Shown: piece by piece, positions 2-51,888 of the stretch | How positions within the stretch are numbered: the stretch's first letter is position 1 | Layout of the letters: every line of letters begins with the position of its first letter | From: a virus | Length of the DNA: 51,888 nt | Strand: one strand, 5' to 3' | IMG/VR virus record: IMGVR_UViG_3300037245_002962 | Span: 1-51,888 of that record | Notes under the pieces: model-generated | Databases searched by the model: none | What the model was told of the DNA's origin: nothing | Seen by the model: only the letters and a program-made list of their open reading frames with translations | Program-made: the position numbers and the translations under genes

Positions 2-52
2 GAAATGAACGCTAATAGATAGGTTGTAAAAATATTAGCAGTAAACTAAACA
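2..52 (+). repeat. Left-end copy of the orphan-gene boundary repeat
   Basis: Two blocks recur at the other end in inverted orientation: GAAATGAACGCTAA (2-15; complement at 51874-51887) and TAGCAGTAAACTAAACA (36-52; complement at 51839-51855). The 32 bases 21-52 recur as a direct copy at 581-612 with one mismatch, and in shortened form at 33849-33870. Each copy lies upstream of a small orphan gene. Whether these are recombination boundaries or regulatory leaders is not settled by sequence. Confidence 0.75.
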
Positions 53-93
53 TAGGCTATTATTTTTAGCTTGTGTTACAAACTTTTAAAATT

Positions 94-234
94 ATGAATA
101 GATTTAAAGGATTAAACCTAAGTAACATTTTTGTAGTATTGTGTGTGATAGCACTAATGATTGAGGGAACGATGGAGTGGTTTTACGGACTTATGATAAT
201 TGTATATCTGCTTGAAATTAAACTAAACGAATAA
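94..234 (+). CDS. Small predicted membrane protein (46 aa)
   Basis: ATG follows an A-rich leader downstream of the left-end boundary repeat. The product has a basic start (MNRFKG), a hydrophobic stretch at about residues 11-23, a short polar gap (EGTMEW) and a second hydrophobic stretch at about 29-40, as expected for a two-pass micro-membrane protein. No family recognised. Reading-frame length and hydrophobic pattern support it; its isolation among other orphan genes suggests an accessory role. Confidence 0.5.
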   Translation: MNRFKGLNLSNIFVVLCVIALMIEGTMEWFYGLMIIVYLLEIKLNE

Positions 235-316
235 TTTTTATTGTTTGTAATGATAGGTGTAACAGCCGTTTTAATGGCTTGGTTACATGATGTTATGTGT
301 GTTTTAAATTTTAATT

Positions 317-565
317 ATGAGGTATTTAGATTTTGAAAATCAAGAAAAAGGATATAAAAAATTTTACTTGAATAGAGAAAACATAAGAAAAAACATAGGT
401 AAGCAAATATGTTTTGTTGATAAAAGAGATATAGACCCTTACAGAGGTTATTATAATGTTGATTATGGGATATTACATAGTGTAAGGTATTCTCGCCTTT
501 TTCTTAATGATGGTAATAGGGAGGTTGATATAAGAGATGTTGTTGAATGTGGAATTAAAATTTAA
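317..565 (+). CDS. Conserved hypothetical phage protein (82 aa)
   Basis: Soluble, charged 82-residue protein with the core GKQICFVDKRDIDPYRGYY, then DVV near the C terminus. I associate this pattern with small hypothetical proteins of Bacteroidetes phages, but no function is known to me. The gene lies between two direct copies of the boundary repeat (21-52 and 581-612), so it and the 94-234 gene form one repeat-bounded unit of about 560 bp. A 28-codon frame (250-336) overlaps its start and is probably not a gene. Confidence 0.7.
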   Translation: MRYLDFENQEKGYKKFYLNRENIRKNIGKQICFVDKRDIDPYRGYYNVDYGILHSVRYSRLFLNDGNREVDIRDVVECGIKI

Positions 566-580
566 TTACACATAATGGAG

Positions 581-684
581 AGGTTGTAAAAATATTAGCA
601 GTAGACTAAACACAATAATAGCAGCTAAAAAGACCCATAACACCTGCTATTATTTTTGACAACGTGTTATGTGGCGTAATTATT
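581..684 (+). promoter_or_regulatory. Conserved structured leader with possible H-type pseudoknot
   Basis: Boundary repeat 581-612 continues into two interleaved stems. Stem 1 pairs AATAGCAG (617-624) with CTGCTATT (644-651). Stem 2 pairs CATAACAC (636-643) with GTGTTATG (664-671). The 5' strand of stem 2 sits inside stem 1's loop, the geometry of an H-type pseudoknot. The layout recurs inverted at 51767-51855, with one C-G to T-A compensatory change in stem 2. The ATG of the next gene is 13 nt downstream. The sequence TATTTTTG (650-657) also fits the Bacteroidetes -7 consensus. It could be a leader RNA, a promoter region or a recombination site. Confidence 0.5.
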
Positions 685-849
685 ATGAAACCTAAGAAAC
701 GAAGAAGTAAGGACGAAGAAATTGTTTTAAACGAAAACAACATAACATGGCATAGTGTATTTGGCTATGTATTTAAAAATTCTATCACGGAGGATTCGTG
801 CCAAATGTGCACGTACACTGATGTAATTCAAGTTTTAAGTGAATTTTAA
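685..849 (+). CDS. Hypothetical protein (54 aa)
   Basis: I start at ATG 685 rather than the in-frame GTG at 664 because 664 lies inside the conserved leader stem. The product begins with a basic patch (MKPKKRRSKDEE) followed by a mixed region with two Cys (CQMC). No family recognised. The leader is shared with the gene at the right end of the window (51541-51768), but the proteins are not obviously similar, so the leader rather than the coding region is conserved. Confidence 0.55.
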   Translation: MKPKKRRSKDEEIVLNENNITWHSVFGYVFKNSITEDSCQMCTYTDVIQVLSEF

Positions 850-859
850 TATTAATATC

Positions 860-1162
860 ATGAATATAGTAGAAATATTACAGCATTTGGACGAAAAAGA
901 AATAGATTATAGACTTGAGAGCAACCATTGTGTTGGATATATATTTTATTTCTTAGATGGATCTATTTTTCCGAGAAGATTCCATGATCATGATTTAGAT
1001 GAAACGATAGATTTCAAAATAGTTTCTGAATCTACTGATCATTTATTAGAGAGAATTACACATACTGAGCTTGAAAAAGATTGGAAGCATAGGATAGTTA
1101 GTGACGACATTTCAGATACTTTTAAAAAGGTTGAAGAATATCTATTCCTTAATGCCACATAA
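860..1162 (+). CDS. Hypothetical acidic protein (100 aa)
   Basis: ATG 860 (MNIVEILQHL) follows AT-rich sequence 11 nt after the previous stop; an upstream in-frame GTG at 839 is less likely because it overlaps the previous gene. The protein is acidic, with His and Asp clusters (FHDHDLDE), and looks globular without membrane segments. No family recognised. The stop is followed by a boundary-type sequence, CCACATAACG. Confidence 0.6.
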   Translation: MNIVEILQHLDEKEIDYRLESNHCVGYIFYFLDGSIFPRRFHDHDLDETIDFKIVSESTDHLLERITHTELEKDWKHRIVSDDISDTFKKVEEYLFLNAT

Positions 1163-1216
1163 CGTTTTGGCTAAGGAATTTAATTTTACGTACAAATAAA
1201 AACTAATATAAATATT

Positions 1217-1477
1217 ATGGAAGAAATTATCAAAAAGTGGAAAGATAAGTTGGCTGAAGATAAAAGAGAAGATGTTTACTATACAAGGGAATTACTGGAT
1301 GAAATGATTAGCGACTTTAAACAGCAAGTAAAATTATTTTCTTTAGCTCGTGTTACCCAGCAACGCGAATCGTTCATAGATTTTGGCTTGTGGATTCATA
1401 AACTTGCAGGTGAAAACGACACCGAAAAAGTTACCAAATTAGTAGACTTATATTTAAAATCTATTAATGATGGGTAA
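1217..1477 (+). CDS. Hypothetical helical protein (86 aa)
   Basis: Charged, probably all-helical protein starting MEEIIKKWKDKLAEDKRED. It is preceded by the A-rich leader usual here and by an AACG-containing boundary after the previous stop. It ends the rightward orphan group; leftward transcription from the lysis genes converges on it from the right. No family recognised. Confidence 0.6.
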   Translation: MEEIIKKWKDKLAEDKREDVYYTRELLDEMISDFKQQVKLFSLARVTQQRESFIDFGLWIHKLAGENDTEKVTKLVDLYLKSINDG

Positions 1478-5735: not shown

Positions 5736-6914
5736 TTAATCTAGCTGCACCCATGCCGTGCCGTTGTAATAATATATATGATTATCCGAATTATTTACAT
5801 ACATCCAACCTAAGGATGGAGATGATGGAGCTGAAGCCCTTGGTGTAAGTTTAATTACTGTTGAAATTTCTATATCTCCGAAAATACGCCTTCCACCTTG
5901 ATCAATATTATCGTGTGGAACATCGTTAAATTCAGTCTCACCAGAGGTCATTACTCTATCTCCAGTACCAGTATTTGATAAAGCAACAAACATTCCATTT
6001 CCATAGGCTACAGTATACCAATTATTAGCAACAGGATTAATCCTGCTAGTCCAATTTATACCGTCAGGACTGGTCATTACTCTATTTGTACCATCAAAAC
6101 CAACTACTACAAACAACCCCTTTCCATAGATAATCCCAATCCAACCATTAGTAATACTAACTTGAGAAGTCCAATTTATACCGTCAGGACTGGTCATTAT
6201 ATCATTACTTCCTCCTTGACTTGATATAGCAACAAACAACCCATTTCCATAGGTAATACTACTCCAGCTTCTAGATGGACTAGCTTGAGAAGTCCAATTT
6301 ATACCGTCAGGACTGGTCATTACTCTATTGCCTGCACCGCTATTTGCACCTGCTACAAATAACCCATTTCCATATGTAATACATCTCCAATTACTATCGA
6401 GTGCACTAGCTTGAGAAGTCCAATTTATACCGTCAGGACTGGTCATTACTCTATTGCCTGCACCATCACCCGATATAGCAACAAACAATCCCTTTCCATA
6501 GGTAATACCCTTCCACTGATTATCAGATGCACCAGTTTGAGAAGTCCAATTTATACCGTCAGGACTGGTCATTACTCTATTTGTACCAGTACCATTACTT
6601 GATACAGCAACAAACAACCCATTTCCATAGGTAATACTAGTCCAATCATTATCAGCTGCACTAGTTTGAGATGTCCAATTTACGCCATCAGGACTGGTCA
6701 TTACTCTATTGTTAGTTCCAGTCTGAGATACAGCAACAAACAATCCATTTCCATAGGCAATACTATTCCACTGATTATCAGCTGCACTAGTTTGAATAGT
6801 CCAACTTATACCACCAGCAGTATCGATATCCCAACTATCCCTAAATTTCTGCTTTAGAGTATCATTAAATTCTTCCCCATCTTTACTGGTTGGTGTTGTG
6901 TTAAATTCTGCCAT
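5736..6914 (-). CDS. Seven-repeat propeller-like tail protein
   Basis: Seven repeats of about 40-43 residues fill residues 36-330. Each has a core like SITYGNGLFVAVSS, then MTSPDGINWTSQ. Seven repeats with SPDG turns suggest a seven-bladed beta-propeller. The C terminus (GWMYVNNSDNHIYYYNGTAW) resembles the tip motif of phage tail fibres, and the N terminus could anchor to the tail. It lies between a distal-tail-like gene and the tail hub, so it is probably an adsorption or carbohydrate-binding tail component. Its start overlaps the upstream stop. Fold and ligand are inference. Confidence 0.7.
   Translation of the reverse strand: MAEFNTTPTSKDGEEFNDTLKQKFRDSWDIDTAGGISWTIQTSAADNQWNSIAYGNGLFVAVSQTGTNNRVMTSPDGVNWTSQTSAADNDWTSITYGNGLFVAVSSNGTGTNRVMTSPDGINWTSQTGASDNQWKGITYGKGLFVAISGDGAGNRVMTSPDGINWTSQASALDSNWRCITYGNGLFVAGANSGAGNRVMTSPDGINWTSQASPSRSWSSITYGNGLFVAISSQGGSNDIMTSPDGINWTSQVSITNGWIGIIYGKGLFVVVGFDGTNRVMTSPDGINWTSRINPVANNWYTVAYGNGMFVALSNTGTGDRVMTSGETEFNDVPHDNIDQGGRRIFGDIEISTVIKLTPRASAPSSPSLGWMYVNNSDNHIYYYNGTAWVQLD
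6048..6703 (-). repeat. Intragenic tandem DNA repeat in the propeller gene
   Basis: A segment of about 31 bases encoding MTSPDGINWTS recurs at about 6048, 6168, 6291, 6417, 6543 and, diverged, 6673, with a period of 120-130 bp. Five copies are almost identical at DNA level while the intervening codons differ. This suggests unequal recombination or gene conversion rather than amino-acid selection alone. Confidence 0.85.
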
Positions 6915-22765: not shown

Positions 22766-23053
22766 ATGTGGTGTTATAGATGTAACTGTAAATGTTGTAA
22801 AGATGGCAAGGATGGCAAGGATGGTGAGAATGGCAAGGATGGCAAGGATGGCAAGGATGGTGAGAATGGAACATGCGAATGCGGAAACATCAAAATGCCT
22901 ATGTGTCATAACGGGAATAATATCGAGGTAGCATTACCTGCCGTAGCCGCTCATTTGAATCATGGCGATACCTTAGGCTTGTGTCCGACAATACAGCCGA
23001 TAACTAATGAATCGGATGATAAAAAACCAACAGGAGACACTGAAAAGGAGTAA
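22766..23053 (+). CDS. Collagen-like protein with CHNG/HLNHGDTLG motif
   Basis: A Cys-rich start (CYRCNCKCC) is followed by about eight Gly-x-y triplets (KDGKDGENG), a short collagen-like stretch at about residues 12-34. Then comes MCHNGNNIEVALPAV followed by HLNHGDTLGLC, a Cys-bounded motif familiar from secreted Bacteroidetes proteins. The product could be a trimeric fibre or decoration on the virion. Terminator downstream. Function unproven. Confidence 0.65.
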   Translation: MWCYRCNCKCCKDGKDGKDGENGKDGKDGKDGENGTCECGNIKMPMCHNGNNIEVALPAVAAHLNHGDTLGLCPTIQPITNESDDKKPTGDTEKE

Positions 23054-33876: not shown

Positions 33877-34059
33877 ATGTATCAAAAAACAATAAAACTA
33901 AAGAAAGGTACACCATCAGAAACATATACTGCATTCTGCAATAAAGCTGAAAAAGATGGTGTTTTTGTGGCTTGCGGAAACTTAGACGATATGTGGATAA
34001 TGGTGAGATTCGATAATGAGATGAGTTTTAAAGCATGGATAGTTGCTCTATCTAAATAA
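33877..34059 (+). CDS. Orphan protein (60 aa)
   Basis: Begins MYQKTIKLKKGTPSETYTAF and is alpha/beta with two Cys. It follows the boundary repeat; a boundary-like sequence (GCCACGCACTGGGCGCTGAA) follows its stop. No family recognised. First member of the second array. Confidence 0.6.
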   Translation: MYQKTIKLKKGTPSETYTAFCNKAEKDGVFVACGNLDDMWIMVRFDNEMSFKAWIVALSK

Positions 34060-34083: not shown

Positions 34084-34185
34084 ATGAAAAAATATGACAT
34101 TCCGCGTGATAAAATAAAATACGTGGAAAATATGTATTCTCCAATAAGCGCTAATGGAGAGGCGGTATGGTTTGTAAATAGCTAA
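34084..34185 (+). CDS. Possible short orphan peptide (33 aa)
   Basis: A 33-codon frame (MKKYDIPRDKIKYVENMYSP) whose 3' end runs through the left arm of an inverted repeat. It may be a real short gene ending in a boundary, or chance coding in a repeat. Confidence 0.3.
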   Translation: MKKYDIPRDKIKYVENMYSPISANGEAVWFVNS

Positions 34186-34239
34186 ACCGCTTGGAATTTG
34201 AGATAAATTAAATTAATATAAACTATACCGCTTGTTAGC
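34150..34239 (+). repeat. Imperfect long-range inverted repeat in orphan array
   Basis: Left arm GCTAA (34150-34154) and GCGGTAT (34162-34168) pair with ATACCGC (34225-34231) and TTAGC (34235-34239). Inside is GGTTT/AAACC. Two-box arms flanking a spacer recall integron attC sites, but no R-box consensus can be assigned. Confidence 0.5.
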
Positions 34240-34273
34240 TTTTCGTTTTTGATCGGTGGGAAAATTTAAAAAT

Positions 34274-34459
34274 ATGTTACAGATAACAGGAATGGACGCA
34301 ACCGACAAGAAAGAATTTGAAACAGTTGCAAAATATTTAGAGCAAAAGCATGATGACTTAGCTAAAAAGAAAAAAGATAGAACGCCAGACAGCCCGAAAC
34401 AACTGTTACAAATGGCAAATACAATACGAAGAGCTTTAGCGTTGGCAAATGAAAGCTAA
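34274..34459 (+). CDS. Orphan protein (61 aa)
   Basis: Begins MLQITGMDATDKKEFETVAK, charged and helical. I use ATG 34274 rather than an in-frame GTG at 34256 next to the repeat. The 3' end has AAAGCTAATGGATAGG, similar to boundary sequence at 9-22. No family recognised. Confidence 0.6.
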   Translation: MLQITGMDATDKKEFETVAKYLEQKHDDLAKKKKDRTPDSPKQLLQMANTIRRALALANES

Positions 34460-34524
34460 TGGATAGGCGCTATATTGCGGTTAACTGAGATGAAAACGAG
34501 AATATTAACTTTAAAAACGGTGTG

Positions 34525-34707
34525 ATGGCAAATAAATTTGATTACCAGAATATGCTTAATAGAATTAGAGATCATAAGATAAGCAAAACAAAAACACCCC
34601 AATTTACAAATGAAGAGATTGAGGCATGGAATAATGCTATAGAACTGTGCTATGAAATAGTAGAGCGCAGGAGAAGTAGATTTGAACGAGCTACTAACGC
34701 GATATAA
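34525..34707 (+). CDS. Orphan protein (60 aa)
   Basis: Begins MANKFDYQNMLNRIRDHKIS, helical and basic. The stop is followed by CGCATATTAGCGGTA, the left arm of an inverted repeat. No family recognised. Confidence 0.6.
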   Translation: MANKFDYQNMLNRIRDHKISKTKTPQFTNEEIEAWNNAIELCYEIVERRRSRFERATNAI

Positions 34708-34712
34708 CGCAT

Positions 34713-34807
34713 ATTAGCGGTAGTGATATTGTTGAGCAGCAGGAAAATACATATAAGTTTGTCAAAGATGTGTTGGGCGGTAAGATTCAATAATTATTAC
34801 CGCTAAT
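34713..34807 (+). repeat. Inverted repeat between orphan genes
   Basis: Perfect 10-bp arms ATTAGCGGTA (34713-34722) and TACCGCTAAT (34798-34807) are separated by 75 nt. The right arm overlaps the next start codon. Same general design as 34150-34239. Confidence 0.65.
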
Positions 34808-35192
34808 GAGCGAAGGTATGGTTAGAAAATTTAACGACTTTAAAAGACAAAGGATGATAACAAAAAAAGAATTTAGACGAAATTGGATACTAGACCCTTC
34901 AAAAGAAATGGTTGTTGAGTCCGAAATAGATATAGCATATGATAAATATAAGTTAAATTTATTAACTATACCTGTTGTTAGCGTTTCGTGCGCGAATGCA
35001 GATAGTTTTAAGTTAATAGAGACAGCAGATGAAAATTGCTGTAACTGTAAAGGGAATGGTGATGTATGCGACGGTGGCGGTGCGTGGGTATATTGCGAGA
35101 CTAGAAATGATAATGACGAACAGTTTAATGGTGACTGTGGCGAAACGCTAGGTTGCAATCTATTTGTGCGCAGGAATGGGAATGAACGCTAA
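34806..35192 (+). CDS. Orphan Cys-rich protein (128 aa)
   Basis: Begins MSEGMVRKFNDFKRQRMITK, basic, with a Cys-rich C-terminal half (CCNCKGNGDVCDGGG, later DCGETLGC). ATG 34806 sits in the repeat arm; ATG 34818 is an alternative. The zinc- or disulfide-type cluster is the only feature I can name. Confidence 0.55.
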   Translation: MSEGMVRKFNDFKRQRMITKKEFRRNWILDPSKEMVVESEIDIAYDKYKLNLLTIPVVSVSCANADSFKLIETADENCCNCKGNGDVCDGGGAWVYCETRNDNDEQFNGDCGETLGCNLFVRRNGNER

Positions 35193-35196
35193 CGTT
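35181..35196 (+). repeat. Boundary sequence shared with right window end
   Basis: AATGAACGCTAACGTT is identical to the sequence read leftward from position 51886. It overlaps the stop of the previous gene, as boundary sequences do elsewhere. Confidence 0.65.
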
Positions 35197-35256
35197 AAAT
35201 CTATGTTGCGTGACCCTAAATGAAACCTAAATAATAAACTTACCGTAAGAAAGAAT

Positions 35257-35550
35257 ATGGAAAATGAAAAGAACAAAATACCTCAGTCATGCAATATAGA
35301 TAGTGTTATCAAATGTAAGGTAGATAAACGGAAAACAATCTCATATAGAGATGCAAGAGAGTTGGCTTTCGGTTTAGTTCAATCTGCCCTAATGAGAGAA
35401 CGTCTTGTAAGAACACAAGAAATACTTCTTAGAGCGAAAGAAAAAGACCCTACTTTGGATATTGGTGACTCTGTTGTTTATAAAAGGTTTGATGAACTTG
35501 ATTTTGGAAAGGAGTTTGATGGGAGAGCAACGGAGAGTGGTTGTTTTTGA
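35257..35550 (+). CDS. Orphan protein (97 aa)
   Basis: Charged helical protein (SYRDARELAFGLVQSALMRE), starting after an A-rich leader. No family recognised. Last member of the array with a repeat boundary upstream. Confidence 0.6.
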   Translation: MENEKNKIPQSCNIDSVIKCKVDKRKTISYRDARELAFGLVQSALMRERLVRTQEILLRAKEKDPTLDIGDSVVYKRFDELDFGKEFDGRATESGCF

Positions 35551-36280: not shown

Positions 36281-36350
36281 GATACTTGGAACAATGGATG
36301 CTTTGATATACCGTTCAGTATTAACCCGATCTTAATGATCGGGTTTTTTG
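36281..36350 (+). ncRNA. Candidate short RNA (about 70 nt)
   Basis: Runs from the TATATTTG box to a terminator with perfect stem AACCCGATC/GATCGGGTT (36323-36345) and T-run. A 13-codon frame (ATG 36294) runs into the terminator stem and is unlikely to be the product. An alternative is that this is only the terminator of the orphan array. Confidence 0.4.
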
Positions 36351-36436
36351 GCTCATATATTAGCTGTATTGAGTGAGTTTAGTGATAATGGCTAATATAT
36401 TATACCTATAAAACCACCTGTTAAATGTGCAAAGAA

Positions 36437-37148: not shown

Positions 37149-38840
37149 TTAATATAAAGTTGTGTAAGTTAAACTTTTCTTATTCAGTAATATCATCTGT
37201 CTCTTACCGTATTTATTCAAAGTACAACTGGCATAACCCCAACTCGAAAGCCCTTTGTTATATCCGTGATCCATGTCGCAGGAAATTCCAACTTGATAGC
37301 ATCCTCCTTTAATTTTTGGAGAATGACTATGCCCGATTATAGTCCTTACTGAAAGTTTAGCAAATTGACTAATATTACCCCTTGATCCATTAGGCCCTTT
37401 ATGTCCATGTAGAGCTAATTCAACGCCTTTGTAAATAAATGAATCATCTAAACTAAGTGCCCTAACCTTTTCATACCTTTTGTTAATATAATACGGAATT
37501 AAGCCATCTTCGGCTTTCTTATTGAGTTTAAGCGTAAGCATTTCAACAAATATTAGGGCATTTTTCAAATTGTCCCTCCAATCTCCTTTAATCATAGCTC
37601 TATCAACCATATCATCATGATTAGATGCAACAACCAATACTTGATCCATGTTCTCTTCGAACCAATCCAACTCTGAATACATGTGATTTAATTCTCTCCT
37701 GAAGTCATCACGACCCGCTTGCTGTAGTTCGTGTTGTATTACAGGATCCTTCATATTGTGAGTATTCATACTTTCACTATCAAAAACATCATGTAATACC
37801 GATTTTCTTATACCTAAATCCTTGCATATATCCCTAAATGCATTTGTAACATTTTGATTTTTTTGAGCAAAGTGACTGTCCCCCCATATTAAATACTCAA
37901 TATCTTCTTCTGTGATAGTTTGATTAGATATTTTATATTTTAAATCATTAAAGCATCCGTCCTTTTGAGCTGACACACTTCTTACATGTACGATTTCATC
38001 ATTCTCAATTTCAACTACTATAAAACCATATGAGTGATGTTCGGCAGCTTTTCCGCCCGCTACCGTATCTGTAAATGATGGTGCTGTTACTGATCCTGTA
38101 GAATAGATAAATTTCTGATGCTGCTCTTTAAGTGATGATAGCGGATGCATTTCAATTTTAGGAGCGCCTACGATACATGTTTTATCATCCCCAAATAATT
38201 CTGTAGATCTGGTTGGATTAGGTGCGGTGGCTTGGATTTTTAGATCAGCTAGTAATACTAATCTCGGATGCAATACTTGGCGTTTAGCTGTTAGGTACTT
38301 ATCGACCTCTAAAGACCATACATCCCCAGACTCTTTCCATATTGAAGTCGGGTTTCTATATCTAGTTGCTATAATACCTATTTCGGCTCCAATAAATTTC
38401 GCGTAAGCTTCTATATTTTTAAGAAACTCAGTGTGAACCATACTGGCTGTTTGAGCAGAAGAAATTATATATCGTTTACTTTTCTTTATTTTTCGATTTT
38501 TAGCCTTAAAGAACTGAGTCGGCATTAAAGATAATCCCATGGCTGAAACCCATTGTTCAACATTTTCATGATTAACCTTTAAATTTTCTGAAAGCAACTC
38601 TAATTTCTCTGAATGAGATAAAGTTTGATTTCTACAAATCTTCCTTACATATGCTTTATGTTCCTTAGGTACTAGTATTTTCTTTCTAGGAGCCGTCACG
38701 GTTGCGAATACAACATCTTGATTATCTCTAATAGCACACATAGCTCTTGCATCGCTTTCAGAAATATTAAATCTTTTAGTGATTTCTTTACGACCTACGC
38801 CATGCATTTCTAGAACCTGCTTGAGAATTTCCTTATTCAT
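37149..38840 (-). CDS. HTH-metallophosphoesterase, T5 A1-like
   Basis: A 563-residue protein. The N terminus (GVGRKEITKRFNISESDARA) looks like a helix-turn-helix. The C-terminal half carries metallophosphoesterase motifs in order: GDSHF (near residue 317), HDVFDSES (near 350), ASNHDD (near 405), LALHGHKGPNGSRGN (near 475) and IIGHSHSP (near 500). The GHxGPNG and GHSHSP combination resembles the T5 A1 protein as I remember it, which has roles in host DNA degradation and takeover. Overlaps the upstream kinase gene by 8 nt. A1 homology needs testing. Confidence 0.6.
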   Translation of the reverse strand: MNKEILKQVLEMHGVGRKEITKRFNISESDARAMCAIRDNQDVVFATVTAPRKKILVPKEHKAYVRKICRNQTLSHSEKLELLSENLKVNHENVEQWVSAMGLSLMPTQFFKAKNRKIKKSKRYIISSAQTASMVHTEFLKNIEAYAKFIGAEIGIIATRYRNPTSIWKESGDVWSLEVDKYLTAKRQVLHPRLVLLADLKIQATAPNPTRSTELFGDDKTCIVGAPKIEMHPLSSLKEQHQKFIYSTGSVTAPSFTDTVAGGKAAEHHSYGFIVVEIENDEIVHVRSVSAQKDGCFNDLKYKISNQTITEEDIEYLIWGDSHFAQKNQNVTNAFRDICKDLGIRKSVLHDVFDSESMNTHNMKDPVIQHELQQAGRDDFRRELNHMYSELDWFEENMDQVLVVASNHDDMVDRAMIKGDWRDNLKNALIFVEMLTLKLNKKAEDGLIPYYINKRYEKVRALSLDDSFIYKGVELALHGHKGPNGSRGNISQFAKLSVRTIIGHSHSPKIKGGCYQVGISCDMDHGYNKGLSSWGYASCTLNKYGKRQMILLNKKSLTYTTLY

Positions 38841-50742: not shown

Positions 50743-50805
50743 ATTAAAACGAAATGGTAGCAAGGGTTTTATTATTTATAGCCCTTGCTACCATTTCGTT
50801 TTAAT
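50743..50805. repeat. Perfect 24-bp inverted repeat
   Basis: Arms at 50743-50766 and 50782-50805 are perfectly complementary, with a 15-nt AT-rich loop. It sits between two leftward small genes, and its right arm overlaps the stop of the upstream gene. It can form a cruciform or a long RNA hairpin. The GGG-T-rich-CCC core recurs at 51018-51040. Confidence 0.9.
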
Positions 50806-50971
50806 CACCTACGTAATCTTCAGTCCTAAAAGTCATAGAGCTTTGTAATATTTCAGCATCACTATAATCAATTATGGCTTTTACGTGTGGGTCAAAATTT
50901 TCACCCATCCATTCCATTAGTGGTCTTGCTTTTTCCTCAAATTCCTTTTGTTGTTCTTTCGTAAGTATCAT
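50801..50971 (-). CDS. Conserved small phage protein (56 aa)
   Basis: ATG 50971 (MILTKEQQKEFEEKARPLME) is right because the rest matches a family I recall in Bacteroidetes phages: ARPLMEWMGENFDPHVKAII followed by an acidic C terminus with an EDY. Function unknown. The longer upstream frame is repeat-type sequence. Confidence 0.65.
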   Translation of the reverse strand: MILTKEQQKEFEEKARPLMEWMGENFDPHVKAIIDYSDAEILQSSMTFRTEDYVGD

Positions 50972-51059
50972 TATTTTATATTTAAGTTTCGTGCGTTTAA
51001 TCCCTCTGCACAAAAAAGGGTTTTTACTATTCATAGCCCCATACGTTACCAAACATATA

Positions 51060-51260
51060 CTATTCAATAGTATTTATTAGCTTAATAACATCTTCTATTT
51101 TAATGTAATCACCATCTTCATCGTAATACATATAACTACCACCACTATCGCAACCACAATTTAATCGCTTGTCTTTGGACTCTTTAATACGTTTGGTAAC
51201 ACTACCTATAAGTAATGCTCTTTGCTCTTTTTCTTCTTGCTTGTTGTATTCTTTAAACAT
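51060..51260 (-). CDS. Orphan protein (66 aa)
   Basis: Charged N-terminal helix (NKQEEKEQRALLIGSVTKRI) and a Cys/Gly/Tyr/Asp C-terminal half (CGCDSGGSYMYYDEDGDY). Flanked by boundary sequences. No family recognised. Confidence 0.6.
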   Translation of the reverse strand: MFKEYNKQEEKEQRALLIGSVTKRIKESKDKRLNCGCDSGGSYMYYDEDGDYIKIEDVIKLINTIE

Positions 51261-51326
51261 CTTTTTATATTTTAAGTTAATTTCTGTTTTATCGCACTAC
51301 TCATAGCTATGGCACGTTATAGGCCA

Positions 51327-51485
51327 TTACAGTAACCAACATTTTATTCCATTTTCAGCCATCAGATTGATAAAATCTTTGGCGTGTTTCTTTTGCCACC
51401 TACCATAAAATGTTCTGAAGGTGAAACCGTGTTGTTTGTTTTCTACTTTAACAAGTGTCTGCATATCTCTAGTATTTAACGGCAT
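51327..51485 (-). CDS. Orphan basic protein (52 aa)
   Basis: Begins MPLNTRDMQTLVKVENKQHG and continues FRTFYGRWQKKHAKDF. Its stop is followed by the boundary GGCCTATAACG. Sits between two similar boundary sequences, like its neighbours. No family recognised. Confidence 0.55.
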   Translation of the reverse strand: MPLNTRDMQTLVKVENKQHGFTFRTFYGRWQKKHAKDFINLMAENGIKCWLL

Positions 51486-51540
51486 ACAATACAAAATAAA
51501 TTGCATTGAAACGCCAATTTATTCAAGCCGTTATAGGGCA

Positions 51541-51768
51541 TTAAAGCGTATCAATACCATTCACATACCTTTCGTCTTTTCCATGGAATCCTTTATAAAG
51601 TAAACCATCATCAAATTTAAGTAATTCTCGAGGGTTTACTTTGTCTACTACCAACCAACTGCCGCCAAATTTATTATTCAGAAATAATTGTATACCTCTA
51701 ACTTGTTCATTTTTACATACTATTAAAACCTTCTTAGTAGTTTGGTGCTTTGCAAATATTTTAATCAT
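51541..51768 (-). CDS. Orphan protein behind structured leader (75 aa)
   Basis: Begins MIKIFAKHQTTKKVLIVCKN, alpha/beta. The start codon comes right after the right-end copy of the structured leader. Its stop is followed by GCCCTATAACG, the same boundary type as after the 51327-51485 gene. No family recognised. Confidence 0.6.
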   Translation of the reverse strand: MIKIFAKHQTTKKVLIVCKNEQVRGIQLFLNNKFGGSWLVVDKVNPRELLKFDDGLLYKGFHGKDERYVNGIDTL

Positions 51769-51887
51769 AAAATAACGCCCTATAACATGTTGTCAAAAAC
51801 AATAGCAGATGTTATGGGACTTTTAACTGCTGTTGTCATGTTTAGTTTACTGCTACTATTCTTAGCAGCAACGTTAGCGTTCATTTC
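51767..51887 (-). promoter_or_regulatory. Right-end copy of structured leader and terminal repeat
   Basis: Inverted counterpart of 581-684. Stem 1: CAACAGCAG (51827-51835) with CTGCTATTG (51800-51808), one mismatch. Stem 2: CATAACAT (51809-51816) with ATGTTATA (51781-51788), seven pairs, one a T-A in place of the C-G of the left copy. The repeat at 51839-51855 and 51874-51887 matches the left end. Confidence 0.5.
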
Positions 51888-51888
51888 C

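Follow-up and report, generated by a model that had tools for sequence, protein, structure and literature searches.

Clusters of attC sites lacking an integrase (CALINs) have been published from phages, including Polaribacter phage P12002L, for which attC sites of divergent direction were mentioned, and IntI1 recombined five of the six phage attC sites tested, P12002L_attC2 among them (PMC9892861). The integron site attI1 was once proposed to be an aminoglycoside riboswitch, and attC hairpins in mRNA are reported to hinder ribosomes and the translation of the next cassette, an effect relieved by short ORFs inside attC (PMC8876359). The present phage adds a case to the phage CALINs already known. 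The window, i.e. the whole stretch of 51,888 nt analyzed here (IMG/VR record IMGVR_UViG_3300037245_002962, positions 1–51,888), includes a repeated leader that is very probably an integron-type attC site, the phage then carrying integrase-less attC clusters both at the two window ends and at 34.1–35.3 kb. Most likely about nine attC sites are present, flanking small orphan genes that resemble mobile gene cassettes.

The phage is similar to P12002L in being a tailed phage of Bacteroidota type with attC sites without an integrase and single small genes between the sites. The sites that our scan found beside the methyltransferase genes of P12002L also share the spacer geometry (6/3 in gene direction) and show complementarity within their own cassette (GTTACCTA/TAGGTAAC), and both phages encode an A1-like DNA transfer protein. 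They differ in that no close DNA homology was found between them, the present phage has two clusters and more sites, and its cassettes are orphans instead of methyltransferases. Chromosomal Bacteroidota arrays (e.g. L151, L175, L180 and L183) share with the phage the R'' box ending in TAAC, the imperfect L''/L' helix, the variable terminal loop, the R' box starting with GTTA and the complementarity of R' and R'' within each cassette; R' GTTATGTGGC of cassette B was also found in L183. In contrast to the phage, they are linked to an integrase gene, their attC sequences are unrelated and their spacer asymmetry is mirrored. Among the loci of the integrase-bearing genomes (L145–L205), L183 has attC sites as long as about 216 nt, and a spacer asymmetry of 2/6, read in gene direction, is shared. 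The attI1 of class 1 integrons resembles the present case in that a recombination site of an integron, located ahead of a cassette gene, was read as structured regulatory RNA, but the present sites would be attC sites in a phage.

According to the preliminary description, the leader at 581–684 can fold as an H-type pseudoknot and occurs twice, and it could be either a regulatory RNA of a phage orphan regulon or a folded-DNA recombination site. The stems and the repeat do exist, but what the copies conserve is a fold other than the pseudoknot. Stem 2 was exactly as described, with its end 13 nt 5' of the ATG at 685, while stem 1 proved longer, 11 bp instead of 8. The inverted copy ahead of the gene at 51768 was confirmed (100 nt, 83% identity, E 2e-24), and a third copy was found in addition to the two known ones, the three being A (13–92, + strand), B (573–684, +) and C (51768–51888, −). 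Copy A shares two segments with B, one of 40 nt (93%) and the other CTATTATTTTT...GTGTTA, but it lacks the 5' arms of both pseudoknot stems. The preliminary description correctly noted a conserved leader in front of unrelated genes, which is what the attC/cassette arrangement predicts.

The fold kept by A, B and C is nested and has the order R''-spacer-L''-loop-L'-R', with TAAY and GTTA on the two sides of an imperfect stem of 15–19 bp. The long helix of B is formed by GTTGTAAAAATATTAGCAG (583–601) and CTGCTATTATTTTTGACAAC (644–663), of which the 3' arm is also used by stem 1. Its L''/L' helix has 18 of 19 positions paired, with one mismatch and a bulged G658; in C all 18 positions pair, three of them as wobbles, and an internal loop is present, and in A 13 of 16 pair. 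As an extrahelical base, A and B each have a single G bulged at the corresponding position, and several other sites have none. In all three copies the L helix is flanked, beyond a spacer, by TAAT or TAAC to the left and by GTTA to the right. The bottom strand of site B folds with R''/R' and the lower part of L paired (z −2.6, 1 of 200 shuffles as stable), while the fold of site A alone was no more stable than shuffles (z −0.8).

The architecture scan, with the pattern TAA[CT]–helix–GTTA, found seven raw matches (six non-overlapping) with a score of at least 16 on the + strand, where shuffles gave 0.05 per strand. At a score of at least 15, the two window strands together had eight matches, while the rate in 1.01 Mb of other viral contigs was about 0.6 per 52 kb. 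The scan motifs and several cassette boundaries had been picked after the sites had been seen. The matches fall at the two ends of the window and within a second cluster, 34.1–35.3 kb, amid small orphan genes (Table 1). As positive controls, the scan recovered the arrays adjoining chromosomal integron integrases and the sites in P12002L. An earlier fold-based attC finder was too loose, but did show typical attC sites beside integrases. The motif TAATRGAKAGG is exact at sites A, B, 34152 and 34457, these being its only four exact matches in the window. A scan match at 36333–36423 (score 15) was dropped; a terminator-like hairpin was present there and its R' was without a partner.

Table 1. Proposed attC sites, pseudoknot stems, and cassette genes of the window, in order of position; numbers in brackets after a site name are its handle in the text.
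Feature	Position	Strand	Details
attC site A	8..86	+	R''-spacer-L'' TAATAGATAGG GTTGTAAAAATATTAGC; L'-R' as in B; short terminal loop; no pseudoknot arms
Orphan gene A1	93..234	+	flanks GTTACAAAC / GTTTGTAAT
attC site after gene A1	243..301	+	TGTAAT-GATAG-GTGTAACAGCC ... GGCTTGGTTACAT-GAT-GTTATGTG; z −3.3
Orphan gene A2	317..565	+	flanks GTTATGTGT / ACACATAAT
attC site B	566..675	+	R'' ACATAAT 570–576, spacer GGAGAG, L'' 583–601, variable terminal loop 602–643
attC site B, 3' half	L' 644–663, R' 664–671	+	R' GTGTTATG; scan score 16.9; spacers 6/2
Stem 1	614..654 (614–624/644–654, 11 bp)	+	within terminal loop; 3' arm shared with L'; nested with R''/R'
Stem 2	636..671 (636–643/664–671, 8 bp)	+	3' arm is the R' box
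Cassette B, two small orphan genes (685–849, 860–1162)	685..1162	+	flanks GTTATGTGGC / GCCACATAAC
attC site after B cassette (1160)	1154..1362	+	R'' GCCACATAACG, L'' 1169–1189, L' 1328–1347, R' GTGTTACCC; score 16.2
R''-spacer-L'' relic TAATAAATAGGTTTAAAATATTAGCAGTAA	33841..33870	+	ahead of gene 33877–34059
attC site, second cluster (34152)	34146..34243	+	GCTAATGGAGAGGCGGTATGG ... ACTATACCGCTTGTTAGC; score 16.3, z −1.85
R''-like half site AAAGCTAATGGATAGG (34457)	34450..34480	+	3' of gene 34256–34459; no matching 3' half identified
attC-like site, second cluster	34689..34828	+	score 17.8
attC site, second cluster (34804)	34798..34986	+	CGCTAAT-GAGCGA-AGGTATGGTTA ... TAACTATACCT-GTT-GTTAGCG; score 19.5
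Orphan ORF	34806..35192	+	starts within preceding cassette's attC; last 72 codons in cassette flanked by GTTAGCG / CGCTAAC
attC site, second cluster (35190)	35181..35314	+	GAACGCTAACG ... ATAGATAGTGTTATCAAA; score 16.2
Orphan ORF	35257..35550	+	cassette flanks GTTATCAAA / TTTGATAAC; start within preceding attC
attC site after gene D	51190..51327	−	GGCCTATAACG, L'' CTATGAGTAGTGC, L' GCATTACTTATAG, R' GTGTTACC; score 13.5
Short attC-like site after gene C	51471..51543	−	CCTATAACGGC-TTGAATAAATTG ... CAATTTATT-GCCGTTAAAT; under counting cut-off of scan
Orphan gene C	51541..51768	−	flanks GTTATAGGGC / GCCCTATAAC
attC site C, inverted copy	51770..51882	−	scan score 14.8; fold z −2.75

The textbook consensus of the attC boxes is GTTRRRY/RYYYAAC. 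The R''/R' boxes of the phage have AAC/GTT at the crossover, but do not follow the strict consensus, most R' boxes being GTTATR, GTTACM or GTTAGC (e.g. GTTATG, GTTATA and GTTACC). Chromosomal Bacteroidota sites depart from GTTRRRY likewise, and the departure was therefore treated as a lineage difference. All full sites have GTTA in R', and R'' is TAAC at 35190, 1160, C and the sites after genes C and D, and TAAT at A, B, 34152, 34804 and the site after A1. The imperfect L''/L' helix, the unpaired spacers between it and the R boxes and the variable terminal structure are all as in attC sites; two sites have 173–192 nt between the boxes, which is longer than in most attC sites.

Directly 3' of each leader-led gene lies the reverse complement of the end of its leader, i.e. 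GTTATGTGGC/GCCACATAAC in cassette B and GTTATAGGGC/GCCCTATAAC in C, and the corresponding pair of elements around A1 is TTACAAAC/GTTTGTAA. These flanking boxes vary from gene to gene with the complementarity kept. An integron cassette inserts at G|TTA, and its own attC thus supplies the bases after GTT, which pair with the terminal R'' of the same cassette, so that complementarity within each cassette follows from the insertion mechanism. Altogether 52 of the 60 outer positions of ten genes were complementary, compared to 23.4 ± 4.6 for mismatched genes (5.2 and 2.0 of six positions per gene, respectively), and none of 20,000 permutations reached as high a value, some of the boundaries in this test having been chosen by eye. 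In the same test, chromosomal arrays gave 4.3–6.0 of six positions within their own cassettes and 2.1–4.3 with others. When the test was based on the scan matches alone, a complementary R'' was found within 800 nt for 9 of the 13 window matches, against 17% in control viral contigs. Each gene therefore ends, like a gene cassette, at its own R'' that is complementary to the R' ahead of it. Promoter, transposon-end and telomere readings fail to explain complementary boxes that differ between genes.

Nearly all the cassette genes are orphans, and the search for chromosomal homologues of two cassette ORFs found none that were convincing. Four ORFs (1217–1477, 34806–35192 and 35257–35550 on the + strand, 51260–51060 on the −) start inside the preceding attC-like site and cross its GTTA (R') box, and recombination would therefore swap N-termini, joining new C-termini to a fixed N-terminus.

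Neither an integron integrase nor another tyrosine recombinase was detected in the window (no TIGR02249 or PF00589 match). The window thus lacks the integrase gene and attI of a complete integron and its clusters are of the CALIN type, so that any recombination must be in trans or belong to the past. The helicase and the DNA transfer protein of the window are most similar to proteins of Cellulophaga and Flavobacterium phages, which suggests a Bacteroidota host as the likely one. Of the 396 genomes that were sampled from the phylum to which a Cytophagales genome belongs, 105 had an integron integrase above the curated TIGR02249 cut-off. The DNA transfer protein (phrog_1745, A1-like; 37149–38840, −), also present in P12002L and the Elemovirus phages, suggests staged DNA entry.

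When the DNA is single-stranded, e.g. during replication or injection, one strand could fold back through R''/R' and L''/L' into the hairpin. The host would provide the integron integrase that then cuts at the R' box (GTTA), and one gene with one attC would be inserted or removed as a small circular cassette. In this scheme the hairpin architecture of the three copies and the further sites and the inverted repeat of each gene are observed, while the single-stranded state of the substrate, the action of an integrase in trans, the position of the cut and any present-day mobility are inferred. A side effect of attC on the translation of the next gene is possible.

Such an effect could even be the main one. 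The sites may be attC in origin, but now kept mainly as mRNA structure that tunes the translation of the next gene, with mobility lost; we consider this a minor possibility. It overlaps with the explanation preferred here, as both take the sites as attC in origin. The ribosome-hindering attC hairpins relieved by internal short ORFs (PMC8876359) would fit with it, as would the 34-codon ORF that runs through site C with its stop about 12 nt ahead of the gene, and the lack of an integrase in the window. However, the gene-by-gene complementarity of R' and R'' concerns a DNA site, and no sign of conserved codons or of a start-site hairpin was seen across the sites.

The spacers raise another question. 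Read in gene direction, sites B, 1160, 34804, 35190 and the site after gene D have 5–6 nt between R'' and L'' and 2–3 nt between L' and R', whereas in 10 of the 11 chromosomal arrays with clear gene direction the order is the reverse (2 and 5–6 nt), L202 being nearly symmetric. Relative to gene direction, the strand and orientation asymmetry is thus not that of known arrays, and either the phage cassette genes are opposite in orientation to their attC or the geometry rule differs. The attC-like sites of Bacteroidota phages might be systematically mirrored, with cassettes exchanged by a distinct route; under this reading, which we find unlikely, the mirrored spacers of the present phage and P12002L would mean a recombinogenic strand or an enzyme unlike that of chromosomal integrons. 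It is highly unlikely that the sites are phage-specific single-strand recombination or gene-swapping sites that are attC-like but use another enzyme, although the mirrored asymmetry here and in P12002L and the absence of IntI from the window would suit such an enzyme. The R/L architecture and the complementarity within cassettes otherwise match chromosomal integrons, phage sites including P12002L_attC2 were used by IntI1 in five of six cases (PMC9892861), and no candidate enzyme was seen.

The regulatory RNA of the preliminary description, a riboswitch- or repressor-like pseudoknot acting in cis and common to a phage orphan regulon, retains a very slight probability. Its interleaved stems of 11 and 8 bp lie just 5' of start codons, and H-type pseudoknots with both stems of at least 8 bp occurred in only 8 of 3000 dinucleotide-Markov shuffles of 566–684 and 2 of 863 window tiles, so that such a stem pair is unlikely to arise by chance. 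Between B and C each stem has one compensatory change (C-G to T-A in stem 2, as had been described, and T-A to C-G in stem 1), but one outer pair of stem 2 is broken, and stem 1 has in addition a G.T wobble and a C.A mismatch. Against the regulon also stand copy A without either 5' arm, the nested R/L fold that all copies share with unrelated sequences elsewhere in the window, and the complementary elements 3' of each gene, which it leaves unexplained. In the nested fold stem 1 is an upper stem of the variable terminal loop, compatible with R''/R' pairing, while stem 2, with the R' box as one of its arms, competes with that pairing. The potential for a pseudoknot arises as a by-product from a terminal loop that in two of the three copies contains sequence similar to L'' and R''. 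The attC architecture and the gene-by-gene inverted repeats instead point to the other option of the preliminary description, a folded-DNA recombination site.

Searches for relatives of the leader gave little, which also counts against the regulon. The Rfam search produced chance-level matches only, also at the E-value threshold, and no Rfam family was assigned. Exact-pattern scans for the leader core found unrelated sequence only, both in viral contigs (AGCAGTARACTAAACA and CATAACAYCTGCTATT) and in viral and genome contigs together (TTTTGACAACRTGTTATR). With blastn against phages, plasmids and the 396 genomes, only short and weak matches were obtained and no homologous leader was found. Neither the terminase nor the A1-like protein revealed a close phage relative among the viral contigs, the one terminase match being distant (33%).

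The contig ends (1–16 and 51873–51888) carry GAAATGAACGCTAA in inverted orientation, and nearly the same R'' sequence, GGGAATGAACGCTAACG, is internal at 35181–35193. The ends probably break inside cassette arrays, and the genome may therefore continue or be circular. A linear phage genome with terminal inverted repeats or telomere-like ends, as this shared sequence and copies A and C lying head to head at the two ends might suggest, is hardly credible, since the 34 kb cluster and copy B have the same architecture at internal positions, and GGGAATGAACGCTAACG serves at 35181 as an R'' box.

Other repeats were also observed in the window. A nearly perfect hairpin of 29 nt lies at 50743–50805, 3' of the gene 50801–50971, and its loop segment GGGCTATAAATAATAAAACCC recurs as GGGCTATGAATAGTAAAAACC at 51019–51039, after the next gene upstream. 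A 123–129 nt repeat at 5962–6836, present in about seven copies within a 392-aa ORF (5736–6914, −), probably forms a structural-protein repeat domain. The 9-nt tandem repeat AAGGATGGC at 22790–22878, at the start of a small ORF, encodes a KDG-type collagen-like repeat.

Taken as attC sites, the repeated pseudoknot leaders are no longer puzzling and belong to an integron cassette system carried by a phage. The mirrored spacer geometry remains a testable oddity of that system. The case is also a warning that an attC site ahead of a small gene can be mistaken for a riboswitch-like leader, as happened with attI1. For the orphan genes, the cassettes would offer a concrete route of movement between phages and Bacteroidota chromosomes.
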